This document shows, piece by piece, positions 10,829 to 21,655 of a stretch of DNA of 22,732 nucleotides. The translations under genes were made by a program, and so were the position numbers. The stretch is from Halobacteriales archaeon. Its GTDB lineage: Archaea; Halobacteriota; Halobacteria; Halorutilales; JAHENH01. The stretch lies in assembly GCA_018609935.1 (NCBI GenBank), contig JAHENH010000059.1:1-22732 (forward strand). The letters are read 5' to 3'. The notes beneath the pieces were generated by a model. The model did not search any database, was not told where the DNA came from, and saw only the letters and a program-made list of their open reading frames with translations. Position 1 is the stretch's first letter. Each line of letters begins with the position of its first letter.

Positions 10829-11089
10829 GGAAGCCTATAAACCCTCTTCCTTTAGGTAGAGGATGCATAAACTCTTCTTGCCGGAAGGGGTTTTTTAGGT
10901 ATTAACATATATCAGGTTGTCCGAAAGAAGTCAATTGTAGGCTTATTGGACATACAACGAAAAACCTTATTGTATGTGGGGGGGAACAGGCGGAAATAGA
11001 GCCCTTTGGAGAGTGTAGGTTCTCTGGAATCCAAAGGCTCCCTCGCTGAACAGGGAAGCTTCCGTCCCCTCTAGGCAGGAATGGTTCAC
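10829..11089 (+). mobile_element. IS200/IS605-like non-autonomous element, copy A
   Basis: 261 bp between convergent genes. The left part is GGAAGCCTATAAACCCTC with a hairpin CCTCT/AGAGG around CCTTTAGG (10842-10862). The right end is GAAGCTTCCGTCC...GGAATGGTTCAC. Copy B at 16782 has the same layout: ATAAACCCTCTT near the left end, TTTAGGTATT about 70 bases in, a G7 run followed by AGCCCT, then CAGGGAAGC and TTCAC at the right. The distance between the two end hairpins is about 220 bases in both. This looks like a MITE/PATE-type derivative of an IS200/IS605 element that lost its transposase. The frame ahead of the right end (GGEQAEIEP...TGKLPSPL) contains a TGA and may be the decayed tail of a tnpB gene. 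No TnpA or TnpB is in the window. Confidence 0.5.
10978..11089 (+). ncRNA. Candidate structured RNA in copy A (omega-RNA-like)
   Basis: A GC-rich block in AT-rich surroundings. Long-range pairing GGCGGAA (10989-10995) with TTCCGTC (11060-11066) encloses a strong hairpin: GAGCC-C-TTTGG (10999-11009) with CCAAAGGCTC (11031-11040), topped by AGAG/CTCT. TnpB guide RNAs derive from exactly this part of IS200/IS605 elements, where the 3' end of tnpB overlaps the right end. Expression and function are inferred. Confidence 0.4.
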
Positions 11090-11138
11090 AACCTAATGGA
11101 AAACTATTGAAGTCCATAGATATACCATAATTATTTCT

Positions 11139-11453
11139 CTATGAGTTTTCGTCTACCCATTCTCTATATTCTTCTGTTGTTTTCAGTTCTATTGCAGTAA
11201 TCTCTGGGAGATCATATGGATGGATCTTTTCTATTTCTTCTACTATATCCTCAAAGCTCTGTGTTGTTTTCATTTCGATAGATATCTCTGGATGCTTCAT
11301 TTTTTCCCCTTCCCATATATATTTTGATTCTACCATGTGGGTACTTACACATGCAGCTATATTGTCATCTATGAGTTTTCCTGCTAGATCATCTGCTAGT
11401 TTTTTTGTTTCTTCTTTGGTTTCTCCTGAGATTTTTGTTTGTATTTTCAGCAT
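11139..11453 (-). CDS. cutA: CutA1 divalent-cation tolerance family protein
   Basis: 104 residues, typical for CutA1, a small trimeric ferredoxin-like protein found in all domains and linked to copper/divalent cation tolerance, although its true role in archaea is unsettled. Family features are clear: residues about 23-50 read LAGKLIDDNIAACVSTHMVE followed by SKYIWEGE, and HPYDLPEITAIEL lies near residue 80, with the usual glutamate-rich middle strand (EISIEMKTT). The gene starts 38 bp from the divergent site-2 protease gene, so the two promoters must overlap in that short AT-rich spacer. Downstream it faces repeat copy A. Confidence 0.93.
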   Translation of the reverse strand: MLKIQTKISGETKEETKKLADDLAGKLIDDNIAACVSTHMVESKYIWEGEKMKHPEISIEMKTTQSFEDIVEEIEKIHPYDLPEITAIELKTTEEYREWVDENS

Positions 11454-11491
11454 GCAAAACTGTATTGTATTTTGGTGTACTAAACGTTTCT

Positions 11492-13027
11492 ATGAATCTG
11501 ACTATAGTCTTGTTTGGATTTCTTCTATATTGGGTCTTAATTAGGTTTTTAGATTCTCGTGGTTTTCTACCTCGTGGAGTTGAAACTGTGGGTCCAATAT
11601 TACTTTTTAAGACCGCTAGAGGTAAGAGGTGGCTTGATAGGCTGGCAAAACCCAAACGGTTACTACATAGCTATGGTAACATTGGTGTTTTTATAGCTGT
11701 ATTAACTATGGTTGGGACTTTTTTTATGTTGTTATATTCGGGGTATGTGGGTCTTGTATCTCCGCCTGAGCCTTCTGCTCTTACAGATCCTAGGAATGTT
11801 TTGGTTATACCTGGAGTAAACGAGTTTTTACCTCTATCTGTAGCTCCAGAACTACTTGGAGGCCTACTTATCGGGTTGGTAGTACATGAGGGAGGGCATG
11901 GTGTAATGTCTAGAGTAGAAGATGTAGAAGTAGAAGGTATGGGGCCTGCATTTCTAGGGTTTATTCCTGTAGGTGCATTTGTAGAACCAAACCAGGACCA
12001 AGTAGACCAAAAATCTATAGGTTCAAGGTCAAGAATCTATGCTGCTGGGATAACAAACAACTTTGTTATTGCAATAATATCGTTTATAGCACTCGCATTA
12101 TTGATGAGTGCAGTTATTCCAACAGGGGGGGTTGGTATAGCTGGAGTTGTACAGAATTCAACTGCAGACAACCTAGACATACAGAGAGGAGATATAATAA
12201 AGACAGTAGAAGGAAAACAGATACAAAACCCACAGCAATACCACGACATCTTACAAAAAACTACGGGTAATATATCTATTGAGATTTCGACTAATGGAGA
12301 AACAAAAATACTGAATACATACCTACCAGGTGGAGTAAGGATAAGGAATACACTAGATGGATATCCGGCAGAAAATACTCTACAAAGTGGTGATTTGATA
12401 ACTGGTATAGATGGGGAAAAAATAGAAAATACAACAGCATTCCAACAGTATATACAAAATAAAAACCCTGGGGAAACAATAACGATAACATATCTTAGAA
12501 ACGGCCAAACAAACCAAGATACAATAGAGCTTGCTGAAAACCCACAACGTCCTAATAGTCCATTTCTTGGTGTAACATTTTATACAGAATCCCAACTTGT
12601 TGGAGTGGTTCCATATAACCAAAACATCCCTATAGGCTATCTTGGTTCCCTGAATCCTATAGATTGGATTGCATCTATATATCTGCCATTTGGTGCTACA
12701 GGACCACAGTTTTCTGGGTTCCATGGAACTACACTAGGGTTTTATAGTCTAAATGGGGTGCCAGCAATGTTTGGAGGCATATATTGGTTTATACTAAATC
12801 TGTTATATTGGACTGCATGGATAAATTTTAATGTAGCAGTTCTAAACTGTATACCACTAGTTCCACTAGATGGTGGAAGAATATTTAAAGAAATGGCTAC
12901 AGGGATACTAACCCCTATAACAAAGAAAAATAAAGAAAAAATAGCAAATATAGCTACGGGAGCAATAGCAGTCCTAATGCTAGCTAGTATTTTTCTATCT
13001 ATACTTGGCCCCAGAATTCTGGGATAG
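11492..13027 (+). CDS. Site-2 protease family membrane metalloprotease with two PDZ domains
   Basis: 511 residues from ATG 11492. The open frame extends back to 11405 over cutA, but family members begin with this first membrane helix (MNLTIVLFGFLLYWVLIRFL). S2P proteases cut membrane-spanning substrates inside the bilayer. The zinc site is visible: HEGGH at 132-136 and the LDGG motif with D460. Between them lie two PDZ domains (NLDIQRGDIIKTVEGKQI and ENTLQSGDLITGIDGEKI) that would select or gate substrates outside the membrane. At least five hydrophobic segments are present, with a conserved GFIPVGAFVEP after the active-site helix. It may act in regulated proteolysis of envelope regulators or in clearance of signal peptides; the substrate is unknown. 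Its 3' end overlaps the convergent Toprim gene by 29 bp. Confidence 0.92.
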   Translation: MNLTIVLFGFLLYWVLIRFLDSRGFLPRGVETVGPILLFKTARGKRWLDRLAKPKRLLHSYGNIGVFIAVLTMVGTFFMLLYSGYVGLVSPPEPSALTDPRNVLVIPGVNEFLPLSVAPELLGGLLIGLVVHEGGHGVMSRVEDVEVEGMGPAFLGFIPVGAFVEPNQDQVDQKSIGSRSRIYAAGITNNFVIAIISFIALALLMSAVIPTGGVGIAGVVQNSTADNLDIQRGDIIKTVEGKQIQNPQQYHDILQKTTGNISIEISTNGETKILNTYLPGGVRIRNTLDGYPAENTLQSGDLITGIDGEKIENTTAFQQYIQNKNPGETITITYLRNGQTNQDTIELAENPQRPNSPFLGVTFYTESQLVGVVPYNQNIPIGYLGSLNPIDWIASIYLPFGATGPQFSGFHGTTLGFYSLNGVPAMFGGIYWFILNLLYWTAWINFNVAVLNCIPLVPLDGGRIFKEMATGILTPITKKNKEKIANIATGAIAVLMLASIFLSILGPRILG

Positions 13028-13529
13028 AAATCTCCTCTATAATATCTGAATCTTCCTCTTTTTCTTTGTTTTCTTGTTCTATGTTTTCTATTTTTTGTCT
13101 ATATCTGTTTTGTCGGTTTTTCCTTGGGTTTTTTTGTTTTTTTATTTCTTTTTTGATTCTTTTTTTCCAGGATGTAAGTGCTTCTACCTCATGTACCTCT
13201 TTTTGTGTTAGTCCACGTAGCTGATTTCTTTCTTCTGTTCTTGGAAAAACTCCATGTAGCTCTAAGAGCTTTTTAAGTTTTGAACAGAGTTTTTCTCCCT
13301 GGGAGTCCCAGTCTGTTAATACTATAGCTTCTTCTGTTTTTCTTGATACTTCTTCTGCATTTGTGAGTAGGCTTTTACCGTTTCCTTTAACTCTAATTAC
13401 TTCGGTTTCAACACCAAGATTTCTAAGTGCTTCTTTATCTCCTTTTCCCTCAACTAGCACTGTTTCTACCTTGCATACGGCCTCCACTATTTCCTCGAAT
13501 CTGTGAAGACGATCTTCAGGAGTTTTCAT
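12999..13529 (-). CDS. Small Toprim-domain protein (UPF0292-like)
   Basis: 176 residues. A stand-alone Toprim domain: VEGKGDKEALRNLGV (Toprim motif 1, catalytic Glu, about residues 27-41), the RVKGN loop, and LTDWDSQGEKL (the DxD metal site, about 72-82), followed by GLTQKEVHEVEAL. Toprim domains bind Mg2+ and act on nucleic-acid phosphodiesters in primases, topoisomerases and RNase M5. Short archaeal members form an uncharacterised group close to the RNase M5/DnaG Toprim. The C-terminal third is a lysine/glutamate-rich, probably helical tail (KKEIKKQKNPRKNRQNRYR) that could bind RNA; the final residues PEFWGQV overlap the S2P gene. It is divergent from lysC across 80 bp. The nucleic-acid substrate is not known. 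Confidence 0.87.
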   Translation of the reverse strand: MKTPEDRLHRFEEIVEAVCKVETVLVEGKGDKEALRNLGVETEVIRVKGNGKSLLTNAEEVSRKTEEAIVLTDWDSQGEKLCSKLKKLLELHGVFPRTEERNQLRGLTQKEVHEVEALTSWKKRIKKEIKKQKNPRKNRQNRYRQKIENIEQENKEKEEDSDIIEEISIPEFWGQV

Positions 13530-13609
13530 TTGTGGAAAGGATCCCCTATATACTTATGTTTCTCGTGGAGAAGCCAAAAGCTTTTTTCCCCTCGTTTTTA
13601 AGCTACAGC

Positions 13610-14779
13610 GTGCGACTCGTCGTAAAGTTTGGGGGAACCAGCCTAGCAACAGGGGAAAAGATAAGGAAGGCAGCCGAAAGTATCAAAGCAGAAATTGATA
13701 GAGGAAACGAAGTAGCAGTAGTAGTATCTGCGATGGGAGACTCTACAGACAGGCTGATCGAAGTATCAGATAGTGCCGGAGTAGAAGAAAAACATAGAGA
13801 CGAAATAATAAGCATGGGAGAAAGGACATCAGCCAGAGTATTCAACGCAGTACTATCAAGCCTAACAGACAGCATCTCTCTAGAACCAGGACACAAACAC
13901 TGGCCAGTAATCACAGACAAAGAAGGAAGCATAGACGAAAATAGAAGCCAAGAAAAAATAAACCAACTAAAAACCCTCCTAGGAAAAAAAGTACCCATAA
14001 TCTGTGGATTCCTAGGAGAAACAACAGATGGAGAAATAACAACCCTAGAACGTGGAGGAAGCGATACAACAGCAACACTTCTAGGTAAATACCTAAACGC
14101 AGATGAAGTAATAATAGCAACAGACGTAGAAGGAATAATGACAGGAGACCCAGAAAGCGTAGAAAAACCACAAAGCGTAGAATCAATAACAACAGAAGAA
14201 ATGAAAGACCTCTCAGAAAGAGGAGCAAAAGTAATAGCACCAAGCGCACTCCGATACAAAACAGAAGGAACAACAATACGAGTAGTCCACCACGAAAACC
14301 TAGAAGGAGGAACAATCATAGAAGGAAGCCCAAGACGACAGATAGAGCTAAGAGAAGAAAAACTAGCAGCAGTAACAATAGCAGGAAAATCAATACTAGA
14401 AACACCAGGACTACTATCAAAAGTATCCACCTATCTAGGAAAAGAAGGAATAAACATATACGGACATTCAACAGGAAGAGACTCAATGTCATTTTTCCTA
14501 AAACAAACAGAAGGAAAAAAAGCACAAGAACTACTACACAAAGAAGTAGCCAAAAAAGAAAAACTAACAGGAGTCTCCCTAAGAGAAAACATAGCAATGC
14601 TAGTAATATACAACATAGAAGACCTCGCAGGAGCCATGAAAGAAACCAGCCAAGCACTAAAAAAAGCAGACATAGACGTAGTAGAAATATCCTCAAGCGT
14701 AACAAGCATAGCCATATTCATAGACTGGACAGACAGACACCAAGCCCTAGAACTAGTAGAAGAAATACCACTACCCTAA
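13610..14779 (+). CDS. lysC: Aspartate kinase
   Basis: 389 residues from GTG 13610. The enzyme phosphorylates L-aspartate with ATP, the first step toward lysine, threonine, methionine and diaminopimelate. Visible features: VRLVVKFGGTSLATGEKI at the start (ATP/aspartate-binding KFGGTS), VVSAMGDSTDRLIE, GFLGETTDGEITTLERGGSD with the catalytic-domain RGGSDTTA, then EVIIATDVEGIMTGDP. Two C-terminal ACT domains follow (ILETPGLLSKVSTYLGKEGI and the NIAMLVIYNIEDLAGAMKET region), which usually bind the feedback inhibitor. An in-frame ATG at 13556 would add 18 residues, but the family starts at the VRLVVKFGG strand. No neighbouring lysine or threonine genes. Almost all codons after the first 30 end in A. 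The divergent Toprim promoter is in the same 80-bp gap, with TATATA at about 13546-13551. Confidence 0.95.
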   Translation: MRLVVKFGGTSLATGEKIRKAAESIKAEIDRGNEVAVVVSAMGDSTDRLIEVSDSAGVEEKHRDEIISMGERTSARVFNAVLSSLTDSISLEPGHKHWPVITDKEGSIDENRSQEKINQLKTLLGKKVPIICGFLGETTDGEITTLERGGSDTTATLLGKYLNADEVIIATDVEGIMTGDPESVEKPQSVESITTEEMKDLSERGAKVIAPSALRYKTEGTTIRVVHHENLEGGTIIEGSPRRQIELREEKLAAVTIAGKSILETPGLLSKVSTYLGKEGINIYGHSTGRDSMSFFLKQTEGKKAQELLHKEVAKKEKLTGVSLRENIAMLVIYNIEDLAGAMKETSQALKKADIDVVEISSSVTSIAIFIDWTDRHQALELVEEIPLP

Positions 14780-14786
14780 AAAAACA

Positions 14787-14812
14787 AAAAACCCAATGAA
14801 AAAATGGTTTTT
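14787..14812 (+). terminator. Terminator-like hairpin after lysC
   Basis: AAAAACC (14787-14793) pairs with GGTTTTT (14806-14812), so the stem's 3' arm doubles as a T-tract. The following spacer to 15006 is AT-rich and holds nothing else I recognise. Confidence 0.45.
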
Positions 14813-15050
14813 CCAATATTTAATCTCCAGATATCAAGAAAAAAATAAACCAAAAAAATACCTCTTTATAGACTCTATCCAGACAGTCTAATTTATACTT
14901 ATTCTATATCATCGAATATCATCCATTCTGAAAGACATTATATACGCTGTTTTGGATCCAAATCTGATATTTTATCTTAATTAATAGCTATAGACAAATA
15001 AAACACATATTAAATGTTGATATGTCATAGTGACAACAGAATTAGTTATA

Positions 15051-15362
15051 ATGGTTGAATATACAGTTTTATTAGAAGGAGCAATACTGGTAGAAGATGT
15101 AGAAGAAGTAGATAAAGCAATAGATATAGCACTAGATAAAGCCAAGAAAACCACAGATAAAGCAGACATAGAGATAGGATTTATGGACTGTCCAGTATGC
15201 AGTGAACCCTTAGATTCTGTTTGTATATTCGCAAAAAAAGCCTTAGTAGGATTAATATATGAACAAAAAATAAATGCAGAAACAAGAGAAAAGGCAGAAA
15301 CAAAAGCAAAAAACCAAATAGACCTAAAAAACCTGAAAACACTAGATATAAACCAAAACTAG
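15051..15362 (+). CDS. UPF0212 (DUF555) family protein
   Basis: 103 residues from ATG 15051; a GTG at 15030 would add seven residues (VTTELVI) that the family lacks. The protein matches the archaea-specific UPF0212 family: VEYTVLLEGAILVEDVEEVD then AIDIALDKAKK, and the hallmark FMDCPVCSEPLDSVCIFAKK followed by ALVGLIYEQKI. The CPVC plus a later Cys could bind metal. Function is unknown; the family is widespread in methanogens and haloarchaea. A TATA-like ATATTAAA lies at 15007-15014. The gene converges on aroA with 57 bp between the stops. Confidence 0.9.
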   Translation: MVEYTVLLEGAILVEDVEEVDKAIDIALDKAKKTTDKADIEIGFMDCPVCSEPLDSVCIFAKKALVGLIYEQKINAETREKAETKAKNQIDLKNLKTLDINQN

Positions 15363-15419
15363 ATAGAACTCTTTCCATCCTTTAAGTAATATATAAAAAT
15401 ATAGAAATTTAGCTTCCTT

Positions 15420-16730
15420 CTATTTTTCAGGGATTTTTTTTATATTCCCTCCTAGACTTTTTATGTCTTCTATAAAGCTTGGATAAGATATATTTATACA
15501 TTCAGCATTTTTTATCTTTATACCTGAAACAAGACCAACAAGAGAAAAAGCCATCACTATTCTATGATCACCCCTACTATCTATCTCTATATTACCGGTG
15601 TCTTTTTTTCTTAGGTTTCCTTTAACTATTAAATAGTCTTTCCCTTCTTCTATATCTACTCCAAGCTTTCTAAGTTCTTCAGATATAGCTTCCAGCCTAT
15701 CCACTTCTTTATACCTTAGATGTCCTACATTCTCTATTTTTGTACTTCCAGATGCAAACATACCAAGGACAGCTATTGTAGGAACAAGGTCAGGATTATC
15801 GGATCCATCAAACTCTATACCATTTAATTCTCCACTTTTTGATGCTTTAACTACACCATCTTTCCATTCTATATCTACACCCATTCTATCTAGTAGATCA
15901 ACTATCTTTGAATCTCCTTGAGCATCATCAAACAAGTTCTCTATTTTGACATTTCCAGTTAATGCTCCAGCAGCCATCAGGTATGATGCACTAGAAAAAT
16001 CTCCTGGAACCTGTAGAGTATCTTGGCTGAAACTTTGATCTCCTTCTATATAGAAACCATTTTTTGTTTTTTCTATATCTATACCTGAATCTTCAAGTAC
16101 CTCTATTGTCATATCAACATAAGGCTTACTCTTCAAATTCTTTATATGGATTTCAACTCCTTTCTTTGAAGCTGGTCCAACAAACAAAAGAGATGAAACA
16201 AACTGAGAGGAAATGCTTGCATCTATCTCAGTTCTACCACCTTCTATAGGCCCCTCAACGATTATTGGAGGTTTCCCATTTCCTTTAGTTGAAAATACAC
16301 TACACCCAAGATCGTTCAAAGAATCAATTAAGGGCTGATTAGGCCTATCTCTTAAACTTTCATCTCCGGTTAAAACTGAAAAACCATCAACAAGACTACA
16401 TGTCCCAGTAAGTAGTCTTATAGTTGTACCTGAATTACCACAATCTAAAACATCATCTGGAACAACTGGATTACTATTAAATCCATCAATAACTAATTTT
16501 TTATCCTTCCAACTGGCTTCTGCACCTAAAGTTCTACAACACCTTAAAGTTGCCTCTGTATCCTCACTTTTTAACGGATCCAAAACAGTTGTTTTACCAC
16601 CAAGCCCTCCTGCAAGTATACATCTATGCGTATAACTCTTACTAGGAGGAGCTTCTACAACACCATCTATATCTGAAGCAGTAATCTCTATATCCACTAA
16701 ATATTCCTCGAACTCCCTACCTAAAACCAT
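15420..16730 (-). CDS. aroA: 3-phosphoshikimate 1-carboxyvinyltransferase (EPSP synthase)
   Basis: 436 residues. The enzyme joins shikimate 3-phosphate and phosphoenolpyruvate in the sixth step of the shikimate pathway to aromatic amino acids. All signature sites are intact: APPSKSYTHR (27-36), CGNSGTTIRLLTG (97-109), GDESLRDRP (122-130), ISSQFVSSLL (173-182), VPGDFSSASYLMAAGAL in the middle, EVDRLEAIS, and GDHRIVMAFSL (D388, H389, R390). Length is normal. I kept the ATG at 16730 because a TATA box sits 26-27 bp upstream of it, giving a leaderless mRNA; a GTG at 16697 would give a more usual N terminus (VDIEITASDIDG). No other aro gene is in the window. Copy B of the GC-rich repeat starts about 50 bp upstream. 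Confidence 0.96.
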   Translation of the reverse strand: MVLGREFEEYLVDIEITASDIDGVVEAPPSKSYTHRCILAGGLGGKTTVLDPLKSEDTEATLRCCRTLGAEASWKDKKLVIDGFNSNPVVPDDVLDCGNSGTTIRLLTGTCSLVDGFSVLTGDESLRDRPNQPLIDSLNDLGCSVFSTKGNGKPPIIVEGPIEGGRTEIDASISSQFVSSLLFVGPASKKGVEIHIKNLKSKPYVDMTIEVLEDSGIDIEKTKNGFYIEGDQSFSQDTLQVPGDFSSASYLMAAGALTGNVKIENLFDDAQGDSKIVDLLDRMGVDIEWKDGVVKASKSGELNGIEFDGSDNPDLVPTIAVLGMFASGSTKIENVGHLRYKEVDRLEAISEELRKLGVDIEEGKDYLIVKGNLRKKDTGNIEIDSRGDHRIVMAFSLVGLVSGIKIKNAECINISYPSFIEDIKSLGGNIKKIPEK

Positions 16731-16752
16731 TTAAGAAAAAAACCAGAAAACA

Positions 16753-16760
16753 ATATTTAT
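16753..16760 (-). promoter_or_regulatory. TATA box of aroA (leaderless start)
   Basis: On the minus strand the sequence reads AGATAAATATTG across this position. Its centre is about 26 bp upstream of the A of the ATG at 16730, the archaeal TATA-to-start distance. Confidence 0.5.
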
Positions 16761-16781
16761 CTATTTGCTGGTTTGTAGGAG

Positions 16782-17052
16782 GGAAAGCAATAAACCCTCT
16801 TTTCTTTGGGTGGGGGTGGATGGATTTTTTTATAGGAACTGGATGGTTTAGGTATTTGTATATTCTGTGTTTGGTTGTTCAATCTGAACTGTGTTTGGTT
16901 GGTTTATCTGAGGTTTCATAGGCTTGTTGGGTTTTGTATGATAGGGGGGGCAGTTGGAATCTAAGCCCTCTGACGTAATGGCTTCTATCAATGTGAGTTC
17001 GGTTGATGGAACAGGGAAGCCCCGTCCCCCCCTTTAGGTCTTGGTAGTTCAC
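16782..17052 (+). mobile_element. IS200/IS605-like non-autonomous element, copy B
   Basis: 271 bp, same orientation and layout as copy A: GGAAAGCAATAAACCCTC at the left, TTTAGGTATT, a G7 run, AAGCCCT, then CAGGGAAGCCCCGTCC and TAGTTCAC at the right. Just before the right end one frame reads QLESKPSDVMASINVSSVDG then TGKPRPPL and a stop inside the right-end sequence. That is how tnpB genes of IS200/IS605 elements end, so this may be a tnpB remnant; a TAG two codons upstream of the G7 run breaks the frame. The element separates the aroA start from the downstream side of the DHH gene. Confidence 0.5.
16944..17052 (+). ncRNA. Candidate structured RNA in copy B (omega-RNA-like)
   Basis: G7 (16944-16950) can pair perfectly with C7 (17026-17032). 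Inside this closing stem are AAGCC/GGCTT (16963-16967 with 16980-16984) and CTATCAA/TTGATGG (16985-16991 with 17003-17009). Copy A has the same closed-loop plan with different bases, which suggests that the structure is conserved. Expression is inferred. Confidence 0.4.
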
Positions 17053-17325
17053 CTCACTGTGAGCCGGTAAGACTCTGTGTATAGATCCGAGATGCACCAT
17101 CTATGTATTTTTTTTTACGATTTTGAACACTGCTCTATGTCGACGGACAACCTCCAAACATGGGATAAACCCTCTAGATACATTCTAGGAGATAGCTGTA
17201 TAGTTGACAAGGTAGAATGTGGTATATCCAGGGTCACTATGCAATTGATTCAACCTTTCCTTAATTTTTGGTGATAAAAGAATCTGGTGGCCTGAAGAAG
17301 TCTGTCTTTTAGGGTGGGGAATATT
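17053..17325. other. Intergenic stretch of unknown content
   Basis: Between repeat copy B and the DHH gene. It holds a hairpin CTCTAGA/TCTAGGAG (about 17171-17190) after another ATAAACCCTC, and a possible degenerate right-end-like motif GAAGAAGTCTGTCTTTTAGG at 17294-17313. These may be worn remains of further element copies. No convincing gene on either strand. Confidence 0.35.
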
Positions 17326-18336
17326 TCATTCTTCATCTTCTAGGTTCATTGCTTTGAAGAATCTTTCTTTAACTACTTCTTCTACTAGTTCTGTTAGTTT
17401 TCCTTCTTCTTCAAGTTCTCCGAATATACCTAGTGGGATTTGTGCTCCTGCTCTGTCTTTGTGTCCACCTGCTTTTCCGTCTTCTTGGAATGCTTCTCTC
17501 ATGACACTATCTAGGTTCACTCTTGAGTCATCTGATCTTGCGCTTATCCTTATTTGGTCTTCTACTATACCGAAGACGAGTGTTGTGGATACACCTTCTA
17601 GGTTCATTAGGTAGTCTGCTGCTTGAGGTATGGAGTCTCCTTCTGATGTTCTGGTTACACATGATACTAGAGAGGAGGCTCTTACTTCTCTGTTCGCTAT
17701 AGCTTTACCTATAGTGTCAAGTGTACTAGGGCTAAATACAGCTTGTTGTGCCTCTCTTAATAAGTCCTCATTTGATATTGGGTGTAGATACTTAGCTGCA
17801 CAGTAATCTCTGGATGTAACCCCTTTGAGAAACCCTAATGTCTCTGATCGTATAGCAAATAATAGGGATGTAGCTAGATCTTCATCTGGCTCTATTTCTA
17901 GTTCCTGTAGATATTCTACAAGTATTGTTGTGGTTGCACCAAATTCTTCTCTTACATCTATAAATTTAGCTTCTATTTTTTCCTCATCGGGAAGATGATG
18001 ATCTATAACTATGTCTGTGTCAACATCTTCAGGTATATCGTTGTTTTGTTCCTTTATAGAATGGTCTACTAGGCTTATAACATCGAAACTATCTAGTTCG
18101 TCTAGGTTTTCACCTAGCTTTGTCATCTCTATATCCATCAATGTAACTAGGGCTCTGTTTTGTTGGTGGGTTACTTCTCCCGAATAGAATAACCCACCAT
18201 CTAAACCTATCTCTTCTGCTATCTTTTTTAGTGCTAATCCACTAGCTATACAGTCTGGATCTGGGTTTTCATGGCAGACTATAGCAATTGATTCCTTACC
18301 TTCTAGTATTTCAACTAGCTCGTCTGCTTTACTCAT
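17326..18336 (-). CDS. DHH/DHHA1 phosphoesterase (NrnA/RecJ-like)
   Basis: 336 residues. DHH-family enzymes use Mn2+ to hydrolyse phosphoesters in nano-RNA, single-stranded DNA, pAp or cyclic dinucleotides. Metal-binding motifs are complete: CHENPDPDCIASG (21-33), the VDHS motif (D91, H92) and IDHHLP (D112, H113, H114), with an EFGATTTILVEYL helix next. The C-terminal DHHA1 domain ends in the substrate loop AGGHKDRAGAQIPLG near residue 290. At about 340 residues it is the size of NrnA-type oligoribonuclease/pAp phosphatases and shorter than full RecJ/GAN exonucleases, so it is probably small-substrate specific. It shares a 65-bp divergent promoter region with elp3. Confidence 0.92.
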   Translation of the reverse strand: MSKADELVEILEGKESIAIVCHENPDPDCIASGLALKKIAEEIGLDGGLFYSGEVTHQQNRALVTLMDIEMTKLGENLDELDSFDVISLVDHSIKEQNNDIPEDVDTDIVIDHHLPDEEKIEAKFIDVREEFGATTTILVEYLQELEIEPDEDLATSLLFAIRSETLGFLKGVTSRDYCAAKYLHPISNEDLLREAQQAVFSPSTLDTIGKAIANREVRASSLVSCVTRTSEGDSIPQAADYLMNLEGVSTTLVFGIVEDQIRISARSDDSRVNLDSVMREAFQEDGKAGGHKDRAGAQIPLGIFGELEEEGKLTELVEEVVKERFFKAMNLEDEE

Positions 18337-20016: not shown

Positions 20017-21156
20017 ATGGATTCGAAGACTCTAGAATATATAAAAGGAAGATTCAAAGATTACTATAGAAAAACAGAAATAAACCCGCCTCCAGAGCCT
20101 GAAAAAAGAGAATGGGGACATATTTCCTTCAAACAAAACATGCACAGACATCTATCACTATTTGATATAGGAAGTATAGATGACTGGCTAATAAGAGAAA
20201 ACCCACAACATGTCTACTATAGCTCAGCTATATATGACACTCCTGGAGCAAGAGAAATGCAACTAAAAAATTGGAAAGGAGCAGACTTAATCTTCGATCT
20301 AGACGCAGACCATCTAACAAATGTAGAAAAACACCATACACATCCAGAATCTCTAGAAAAATGTAAACAAGAACTTCTAAACCTAATTTCTTTTCTCGAA
20401 GATGATTTCGGATTTAAAAAAATGGAGATAGTATTTTCTGGTGGAAGAGGATACCACATACACATAAGAGACAAAAAAGCAAGACAGCTTGATGGAGAAG
20501 GAAGAAGAGAAATAGTAGACTACATAGAAGGAAACAATCTAGAACTAGACTCTATAATATATACCGAAAGAGTAGAAGGAAAATATGGAACAGAATCTGC
20601 ACAAATAAAAAAACTAAAACAAAACGGATGGGCAGCAAAAGTCAGAAACCAAATACAAACTCTAACAGAAAACCTAAATAAAATGGAAGAAAAAAAAGCA
20701 AAAAACCACCTAAAAAACTATAAAGGAATAGGGGAAAAAAGAGCTAAAAAAATATATAAAGCTCTAACAGAACATAGAAACCAAATAGAAAAAGGAAACA
20801 TAGACACGGTAGGAATACCAAGTTTTTGGGAAAAAATAACAAAAAAAGCCAGAGAAAAAAACAAAGCAGAAATAGACGAACCAGTAACAACAGATACAAG
20901 ACGCCTAATACGACTCCCAGGATCACTGCATGGAGGAACAGGACTAAAAGTACAAAGAATAGAAAAAAAATCCCTAGAAGACTTCAAACCCCTAGAAGAC
21001 TCTATAGCATTCTCAGACCACAAAATAGAAATACAACCACAAAAACAAACACAGATACACATAAAAAACCAGACCTTCACCTTAGAAGAAAAAACAACAC
21101 TACCAGAATACGCAGCAATATATGCAATACTAACAAAAAAAGCAAAACTAGCGTGA
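20017..21156 (+). CDS. priS: DNA primase small (catalytic) subunit PriS
   Basis: 379 residues, the usual archaeal length. PriS makes RNA/DNA primers as a dimer with PriL. Catalytic residues are present: D94 and D96 in LIFDLDADHL, SGGRGYHIHI (141-150, nucleotide binding), the third acidic residue D287 in DEPVTTDTRR, and H305 in RLPGSLHGGTGLK. A His/Cys cluster after the DxD (HHTH, C116) sits where the zinc knuckle is found. The N-terminal WGHISF, RHLSLF and YYSSAIYD strands match the family. The protein is Lys-rich, not strongly acidic. The only gap to elp3 is 22 bp, with no clear TATA box, so the pair is probably an operon. gins51, its replisome partner, follows after a GC-rich 550-bp interruption. 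Confidence 0.96.
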   Translation: MDSKTLEYIKGRFKDYYRKTEINPPPEPEKREWGHISFKQNMHRHLSLFDIGSIDDWLIRENPQHVYYSSAIYDTPGAREMQLKNWKGADLIFDLDADHLTNVEKHHTHPESLEKCKQELLNLISFLEDDFGFKKMEIVFSGGRGYHIHIRDKKARQLDGEGRREIVDYIEGNNLELDSIIYTERVEGKYGTESAQIKKLKQNGWAAKVRNQIQTLTENLNKMEEKKAKNHLKNYKGIGEKRAKKIYKALTEHRNQIEKGNIDTVGIPSFWEKITKKAREKNKAEIDEPVTTDTRRLIRLPGSLHGGTGLKVQRIEKKSLEDFKPLEDSIAFSDHKIEIQPQKQTQIHIKNQTFTLEEKTTLPEYAAIYAILTKKAKLA

Positions 21157-21165
21157 CATTCTCCC

Positions 21166-21345
21166 TACCGTAAATGGTGGGGGTTCCCGAGGAGTCACCG
21201 ACCCCTTCATAGTCGAAAGCTGTGGAGGTCCGAGTCCGCTCGCCGACTTGATACCTATATATAGAGCTGGAGTTCAGAGGTTGGGTTGTAGCTACACCGT
21301 TCGGGCGTTGTCACAGACACCTCTGTTCCATACTAGAGGGCTTAT
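21166..21345 (+). ncRNA. GC-rich, structure-rich segment (candidate RNA or transposon-end remnant, D1)
   Basis: About 180 bases markedly richer in GC than anything nearby. Possible helices: GGGGT/ACCCC around 21180-21205, AGTCG (21211-21215) with CGACT (21244-21248), and CAGAGGT (21275-21281) with ACCTCTG (21319-21325), the latter enclosing ACACCG/CGTTGT. One frame stays open for about 80 codons without a start (TVNGGGSRGVTDPFIVESCG ...), so a decayed tnpB tail is possible. RNase P and SRP RNA signatures are not seen. Confidence 0.35.
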
Positions 21346-21515
21346 TTCATTCCTTGTTGAAAGCTCAAAACAAAATATGTGGGTTATAAACCTAAAACTG
21401 TAAGAGGGGTTTATTGTGTCTTCCACCTAATGGAAATGGGGTTTTATTGCACCAACCCAAAGTTAGATAAAACTCTAACACAAACAAAACTCCGACTGTC
21501 TTTACCATCCTCTTC

Positions 21516-21552
21516 GGGGATTCCACGTCCTTTATGGCGTGGAGGATGTCAA
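21516..21552 (+). repeat. IS200/IS605 right-end-like hairpin (D2)
   Basis: GGGGATTCCACGTCC then TTTATGGCGTGGAGGATGTC: stem CCACG (21523-21527) with CGTGG (21538-21542), followed by AGGATGTCAA. This is the form of IS200/IS605 right ends in halophilic archaea (GAA-hairpin-GGATGTCA). No intact transposase precedes it. Together with D1 it splits priS from gins51. Confidence 0.6.
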
Positions 21553-21655
21553 TTTATACTAATTATAAGGAATATAATAGATGAAATCACTCTACTGTAT
21601 GGTGTTGGATTTTTCCAAGGTATACTAAACCAAGGATATATTACCTAATATATAC

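Follow-up and report, generated by a model that had tools for sequence, protein, structure and literature searches.

Two diverged, TnpB-less elements with omega-RNA-like right ends in an AT-rich relative of Halorutilales, probably decayed members of one miniature IS200/IS605 family

Two intergenic stretches of a 22.7-kb AT-rich archaeal contig (36.3% G+C; this whole stretch of DNA is hereafter the window) appear to retain the guide-RNA end of a TnpB transposon without its nuclease gene. An earlier note, made from the letters alone, had described them as related copies of one structured element with IS200/IS605-type ends and no TnpB, which could be a MITE-like remnant, a trans-acting guide RNA or a domesticated RNA. 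The first, element A (261 bp), lies between the creatininase and CutA-like genes, and the second, element B (271 bp), between aroA and the gene at 17326-18336; both are intergenic and, as the note had stated, share one orientation. Their features are as follows.

10829..11089, + strand: element A, whole; ends from homology with B and the right-end model, left boundary approximate
10843..10862, + strand: left-end hairpin of A, CCTCTTCCTTTAGGTAGAGG; by eye like haloarchaeal IS605 left ends (CCCCTTCC...GGGAGGGGATGAAT)
10966..11089, + strand: omega-RNA-like right end of A; covariance model R1 (see below), 17.3 bits, E 0.0013
11000..11059, + strand: scaffold core of A, AGCCCT...AACAGGGAAGC; helix P2 kept 4/4 (one G-U); old TnpB frame gives EQGS at GAACAGGGAAGC
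11090..11109, + strand: sequence in the putative place of A's guide, 3' of TTCAC
16782..17052, + strand: element B, whole; same basis as A, left boundary approximate
16793..16815, + strand: left end of B, CCCTCTTTTCTTTGGGTGGGGG, hairpin degenerate
16931..17052, + strand: omega-RNA-like right end of B; model R1, 21.9 bits, E 6e-5
16964..17020, + strand: scaffold core of B, AGCCCT...AACAGGGAAGC; P2 kept 4/4; old TnpB frame gives MEQGSP
17053..17072, + strand: sequence in the putative place of B's guide, 3' of TTCAC

The window also encodes ribosomal protein S6e, an RseP/HtrA-like protease, aspartate kinase, EPSP synthase, Elp3, PriS and a GINS/Sld5-like protein, with several of the gene matches (e.g. 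CutA and the protease) scoring under the NCBIfam cut-offs. Its Elp3 is 62% identical to the top-scoring other Elp3, and the closest by identity among the Elp3 proteins listed reaches 67% over 88%; because none of those listed exceeds this identity, coverage of the host, a relative of Halorutilales with 36% G+C, is poor in the collections searched. The best 3 of 80 genome loci kept, by Elp3, belong to Euryarchaeota Ods02, Halorutilus salinus (order Halorutilales, class Halobacteria) and Ods01, and PriS used as bait retrieved no relatives.

Elements A and B are homologous. Their local alignment scores 370, against 171.6±19.1 (maximum 228) in 500 dinucleotide shuffles, which places it 10 SD above the shuffled sequences, and the shared pieces listed in the earlier note, namely ATAAACCCTCTT, TTTAGGTATT, a G7 run (starting at 10978 in A and 16944 in B), AGCCCT, GAACAGGGAAGC and the TTCAC end (as GTTCAC), are all present in both. 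Alignment is good at the ends, the middle can be aligned only by opening many gaps, and the 80-base flanks show no likeness beyond that of 300 shuffles. The patchy identity, together with the conservation of IS605 ends across families, would also suit two unrelated IS605 remnants that have just these end motifs in common and do not belong to a single miniature family. We regard this as improbable, given the equal length of the elements, the alignment score, and the occurrence in both of TTTAGGTATT and of the TTGTATG..G7 context, which lie outside the parts common to haloarchaeal right ends and persist despite the gappy middle.

Neither element encodes a transposase: both are too short, hold neither tnpA nor tnpB, and have no listed ORF of 80 aa or more inside them. 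Tblastn with eight usable TnpB proteins (ten were taken; L145 was empty and L110 was not TnpB) likewise revealed no TnpB in the window, its best match there having an E-value of 0.14; a chance-level match (E 6.5) lies across B on the opposite strand, and no TnpB similarity was found inside A or B on the + strand. BLASTN with B found no match among plasmids and phages, and in 11 genomes it gave short matches only, spread over seven of them; two of these matches, in genome G022, are TnpB-type right ends. The pattern AGCCCT..GAACAGGGAAGC matched once in 146 genomes, besides 18 viral stretches; the genomic match (L111), once read, was judged to be chance. A search of the nearest genomes with a model that includes A and B (R2) turned up no convincing new copy outside that of Halorutilus salinus (G002): its best matches were 21.8 bits (E 0.017) in G001, in DNA of 64% G+C, and 15.6 bits (E 0.49) in G003, with none in G004 and G005.

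The shared GAACAGGGAAGC is the coding motif for the EQGS of the TnpB C-terminus, and several Halorutilus TnpB genes, identified by their Pfam domain ahead of any pattern search, are followed by ends like GGAAGCCCC..hairpin..GTTCAC. A BLASTN match led to a TnpB-bearing locus ending TGAACAGGGAAGCCCCG...GGTAGTTCAC, and the pattern made from this end gave eight matches in 7 of 293 genomes, compared with none for the reversed pattern. Four of the eight close a TnpB frame ending EQGSPALNE (L132, L135, L138, L139), two carry TnpB sequence that by eye has a broken frame or is truncated at the start of the contig (L133, L134), and two have no upstream TnpB (L136, L137). A wider right-end pattern matched in 37 of 79 genomes. 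This collection comprised 36 distinct right ends, reduced to 27 by setting aside L151, L161, L169 and near-identical sequences; 26 entered alignment A3, with L137 held out, and from these 26 haloarchaeal ends, window excluded, we built covariance model R1. A second alignment, A4, joined 13 of the 27 to A and B. The R1 training family covaries strongly in its four helices. Across the 26 ends 97.8% of cells are paired, and two-sided changes occur at 12 of 26 pairs, in 77 cells where 500 shuffles gave 20.9±4.4; slid versions of the helices reach 32-45% pairing. The four right ends left out of training (L137, L151, L161, L169) score 102-156 bits.

Searched with default filters and up to E 10, the window returned A and B and nothing else; with filters off, they took the top two places among 24 matches, the next scoring 11.4 bits. 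Since the training pattern holds pieces that are also present in the window, these E-values are partly circular, and we therefore put weight on a control and on TnpB loci chosen by protein family. In the control, 80 haloarchaeal loci totalling 1,589,600 bases, R1 gave two matches up to E 10, one a true element of 119.1 bits and the other of 11.4 bits. Among 39 TnpB loci picked by Pfam alone, 22 carry an R1 match at E 0.01 or better, at least five of these 22 being also in the training set. A and B thus have right ends homologous to those of haloarchaeal TnpB transposons, including the conserved sequence ending GTTCAC. Both the IS200/IS605-type ends with an omega-RNA-like right end and the MITE-like nature that had been proposed are borne out by a model trained without the window and by loci selected on protein family.

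Against Rfam, nothing in the window reached a gathering score, RF02656 and RF02657 (sotRNA) included; neither of these two was among the matches up to E 5 over A or B, and no match was found over B. Three weak matches over A lay far under the gathering score and were taken as chance. The R1 family itself, a covarying RNA of haloarchaeal TnpB right ends, is a separate observation: ten loci that carry R1-type or other right ends had no relevant Rfam 15 match at E <=0.1, and RF02656 matched another TnpB locus (L177).

Kinship of sequence was not accompanied by kinship of fold. Neither copy retains the four helices of the R1 family: A keeps 2/5 pairs of P1, 4/4 of P2, 6/8 of P3 and 0/5 of P4, and B 3/5, 4/4, 5/8 and 0/5, respectively, so that P4 has been lost, P1 is largely disrupted, P3 persists in part and P2 is kept. 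Predicted RNA folds are no better than those of shuffled sequences (z +0.8 for A and +0.2 for B), in contrast to z-scores of -1.6 to -5.6 in 13 of 13 relatives. At three positions of P3, A still pairs with both bases differing from the common family pair, which could reflect retained structure or, with only two copies compared, a chance of alignment. As DNA, the end hairpins have z-scores of -1.5 (A left), -0.84 (A right), 0.0 (B left) and +0.9 (B right); the left palindrome of A is fair, its right one weak and both of B lost, the likeness of the left ends to IS605 being by eye only.

The earlier note had also proposed that a long-range stem closes at the same place in both copies, built of different bases in each. 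The stem of A (10989-10995/11060-11066) occupies alignment columns 25-31/117-123, whereas that of B (16944-16950/17026-17032) occupies columns 15-22/122-128. In favour of the proposal, A can pair its G run with its C run at 6 of the 7 positions of the B stem; B forms 2 of the 7 pairs of the A stem. Both stems are absent from all 13 haloarchaeal relatives, which pair 2-5 of 7 positions of the A stem and 3-4 of 7 of the B stem. Furthermore, the longest helix between the two stem regions, nine pairs in each copy, was reached by 42 and 73 of 500 mononucleotide shuffles. Covarying long-range stems were rejected on these three grounds: different columns, absence from relatives and a helix length common in shuffles.

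The RNA parts of the elements are rich in G+C, at 54% in A and 51% in B, compared with 39% in the left parts and 27.7% in other intergenic DNA (3,467 bases); the scaffold of A is the highest 110-base G+C stretch of the window, and that of B falls in the top 0.6% of positions. This argues against plain decay in an AT-rich genome, which does not predict a G+C island. The islands could stem from slow loss of composition, from an unsampled G+C-rich donor or from selection on the RNA. Another G+C-rich island lies at 21153-21562, between priS and the Sld5-like gene, where two more IS605-type ends of another family face outwards, ...TTCGGGGATTCCACGTCCTTTATGGCGTGGAGGATGTCAA on the + strand and ...CTCGGGAACCCCCACCATTTACGGTAGGGAGAATGTCAC on the - strand, the latter being the third R1 match in the window (11.4 bits, E 0.063); no TnpB was found there.

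Elements of comparable plan occur in other haloarchaea. R1 matched in at least 22 of 31 related genomes, and 35 loci seemingly without an adjoining TnpB domain were taken from among the matches listed. Searched by tblastn with the eight TnpB proteins, eight of the 35 proved to have extended TnpB similarity, 19 matched over a C-terminal piece of ~90 residues or less, seven had no similarity, and one matched TnpB on the opposite strand only. Several are repeated: L230 with L233, L234 and L235 (genome G013; ~390 bp, 85-87% alike), L243-L246 (G013; 79-88% alike) and L258/L259 (Halorutilus salinus; 97.9% alike over 334 bp); by eye, the flanks look unrelated. The ~390-bp element, whose omega-RNA right end is well preserved, is thus present in at least four copies in G013, and one like L230 by eye occurs in a second haloarchaeal genome, MAG QS_1_68_17 (L030:19790-20216).

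Taken together, these data suggest that A and B are most likely old, decayed copies belonging to a single family of non-autonomous miniature IS200/IS605 elements, the palindrome-associated transposable elements (PATEs). This reading draws on the specificity of R1 for A and B, the EQGS motif, TnpB-less precedents here and in print, the fold lost in both copies and the DNA hairpins lost in B. It is opposed by the intact P2 in both copies, the 6/8 pairs with changed bases in P3 of A, the left-end match made by eye, and the Y1 transposase TnpA, which matched in only one of the five nearest genomes (at four places). In the proposed course of events, an internal deletion between the conserved ends of an IS605-type element, whose ancestral right end would have overlapped the last tnpB codons and borne the omega-RNA scaffold, would have removed tnpA and almost the whole of tnpB, leaving the left end, short non-coding middle and haloarchaeal TnpB right end that each copy keeps. 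The miniature element may then have been mobilised in the form of single-stranded DNA by a TnpA supplied in trans, after which both copies would have decayed, B more than A at its ends, and are presumably inactive at present. Elements of this kind are already known, and the case of A and B is mostly an ordinary one. Work on bacterial IS605 elements reportedly mentions TnpB-less relatives.

A rather unlikely alternative is that a reduced omega RNA, consisting of P2 and the 3' motif at 51-54% G+C, has been selected in this AT-rich Halorutilales relative, as a guide acting in trans or as a detached host RNA. Its more specific form, in which A and B still make working guide RNAs for a TnpB encoded elsewhere and are retained with the help of this function, gains from the scaffold core and 3' end, which both copies retain, the G+C islands, the three pairing-preserving changes in P3 of A and the presence of TnpB in at least 26 of 31 related genomes. 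It loses by the absence of P4, the mostly broken P1 and folds no better than shuffles, and by the nearest genomes, of which three of five have TnpB (PF07282) and two lack it among the matches listed. The sequences 3' of TTCAC, proposed for comparison with targets, had no exact 18-mer match in IMG/VR for either copy, which is a weak test. A retained trans-acting guide RNA in A and B is hence possible but unlikely, a working one carrying small probability, and the lost end hairpins of B and loss of most of the family fold weigh against any trans-acting or domesticated guide; decay is likelier than guide loading into TnpB in trans. A structured RNA adopted by the host, unlinked from transposition and TnpB, would suit the G+C islands in AT-rich DNA and is very improbable, as neither copy has a stable fold and a search of the three nearest relatives' Elp3 loci with R2 gave a single match (10.2 bits, E 0.34).

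On the favoured interpretation as decayed PATEs, the guide-RNA end of TnpB transposons is here seen parted from its nuclease gene, as it is in the multi-copy elements of other haloarchaea with better-preserved scaffolds, which raises the testable question of whether orphan guides load into TnpB in trans. The L230/L233-L235, L243-L246 and L258/L259 elements resemble A and B in being multi-copy omega-RNA right ends without an adjacent TnpB gene; L230 and L233-L235 are better preserved, at ~113-121 bits with R1 compared with 17-22 for A and B. Haloarchaeal omega RNAs are known to be transcribed, and the sotRNA of haloarchaeal TnpB (RF02656, sot0042) stems from the tnpB 3' end, at the right end of the transposon, as the right ends of A and B would, according to PMC12558985; unlike it, A and B have no relevant Rfam match and lack most of the R1 family fold. 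PMC3119063 describes PATEs of Haloquadratum walsbyi with the same plan as A and B, those like HqIRS71 in particular being short and transposase-free, with near-terminal palindromes related to IS605 ends that in A and B are weak or lost; A and B are also more diverged from each other than those homogeneous elements. No description of omega-RNA scaffolds in PATEs was recognised in the available portions of this literature. Both plan and length are matched by a 271-nt PATE-like IS605 remnant of Halanaerobium hydrogeniformans (PMC7290912), which differs from A and B in being bacterial, single-copy and of another sequence family, and which joins a 28-nt left end and the last 58 nt of tnpB to the whole right end.
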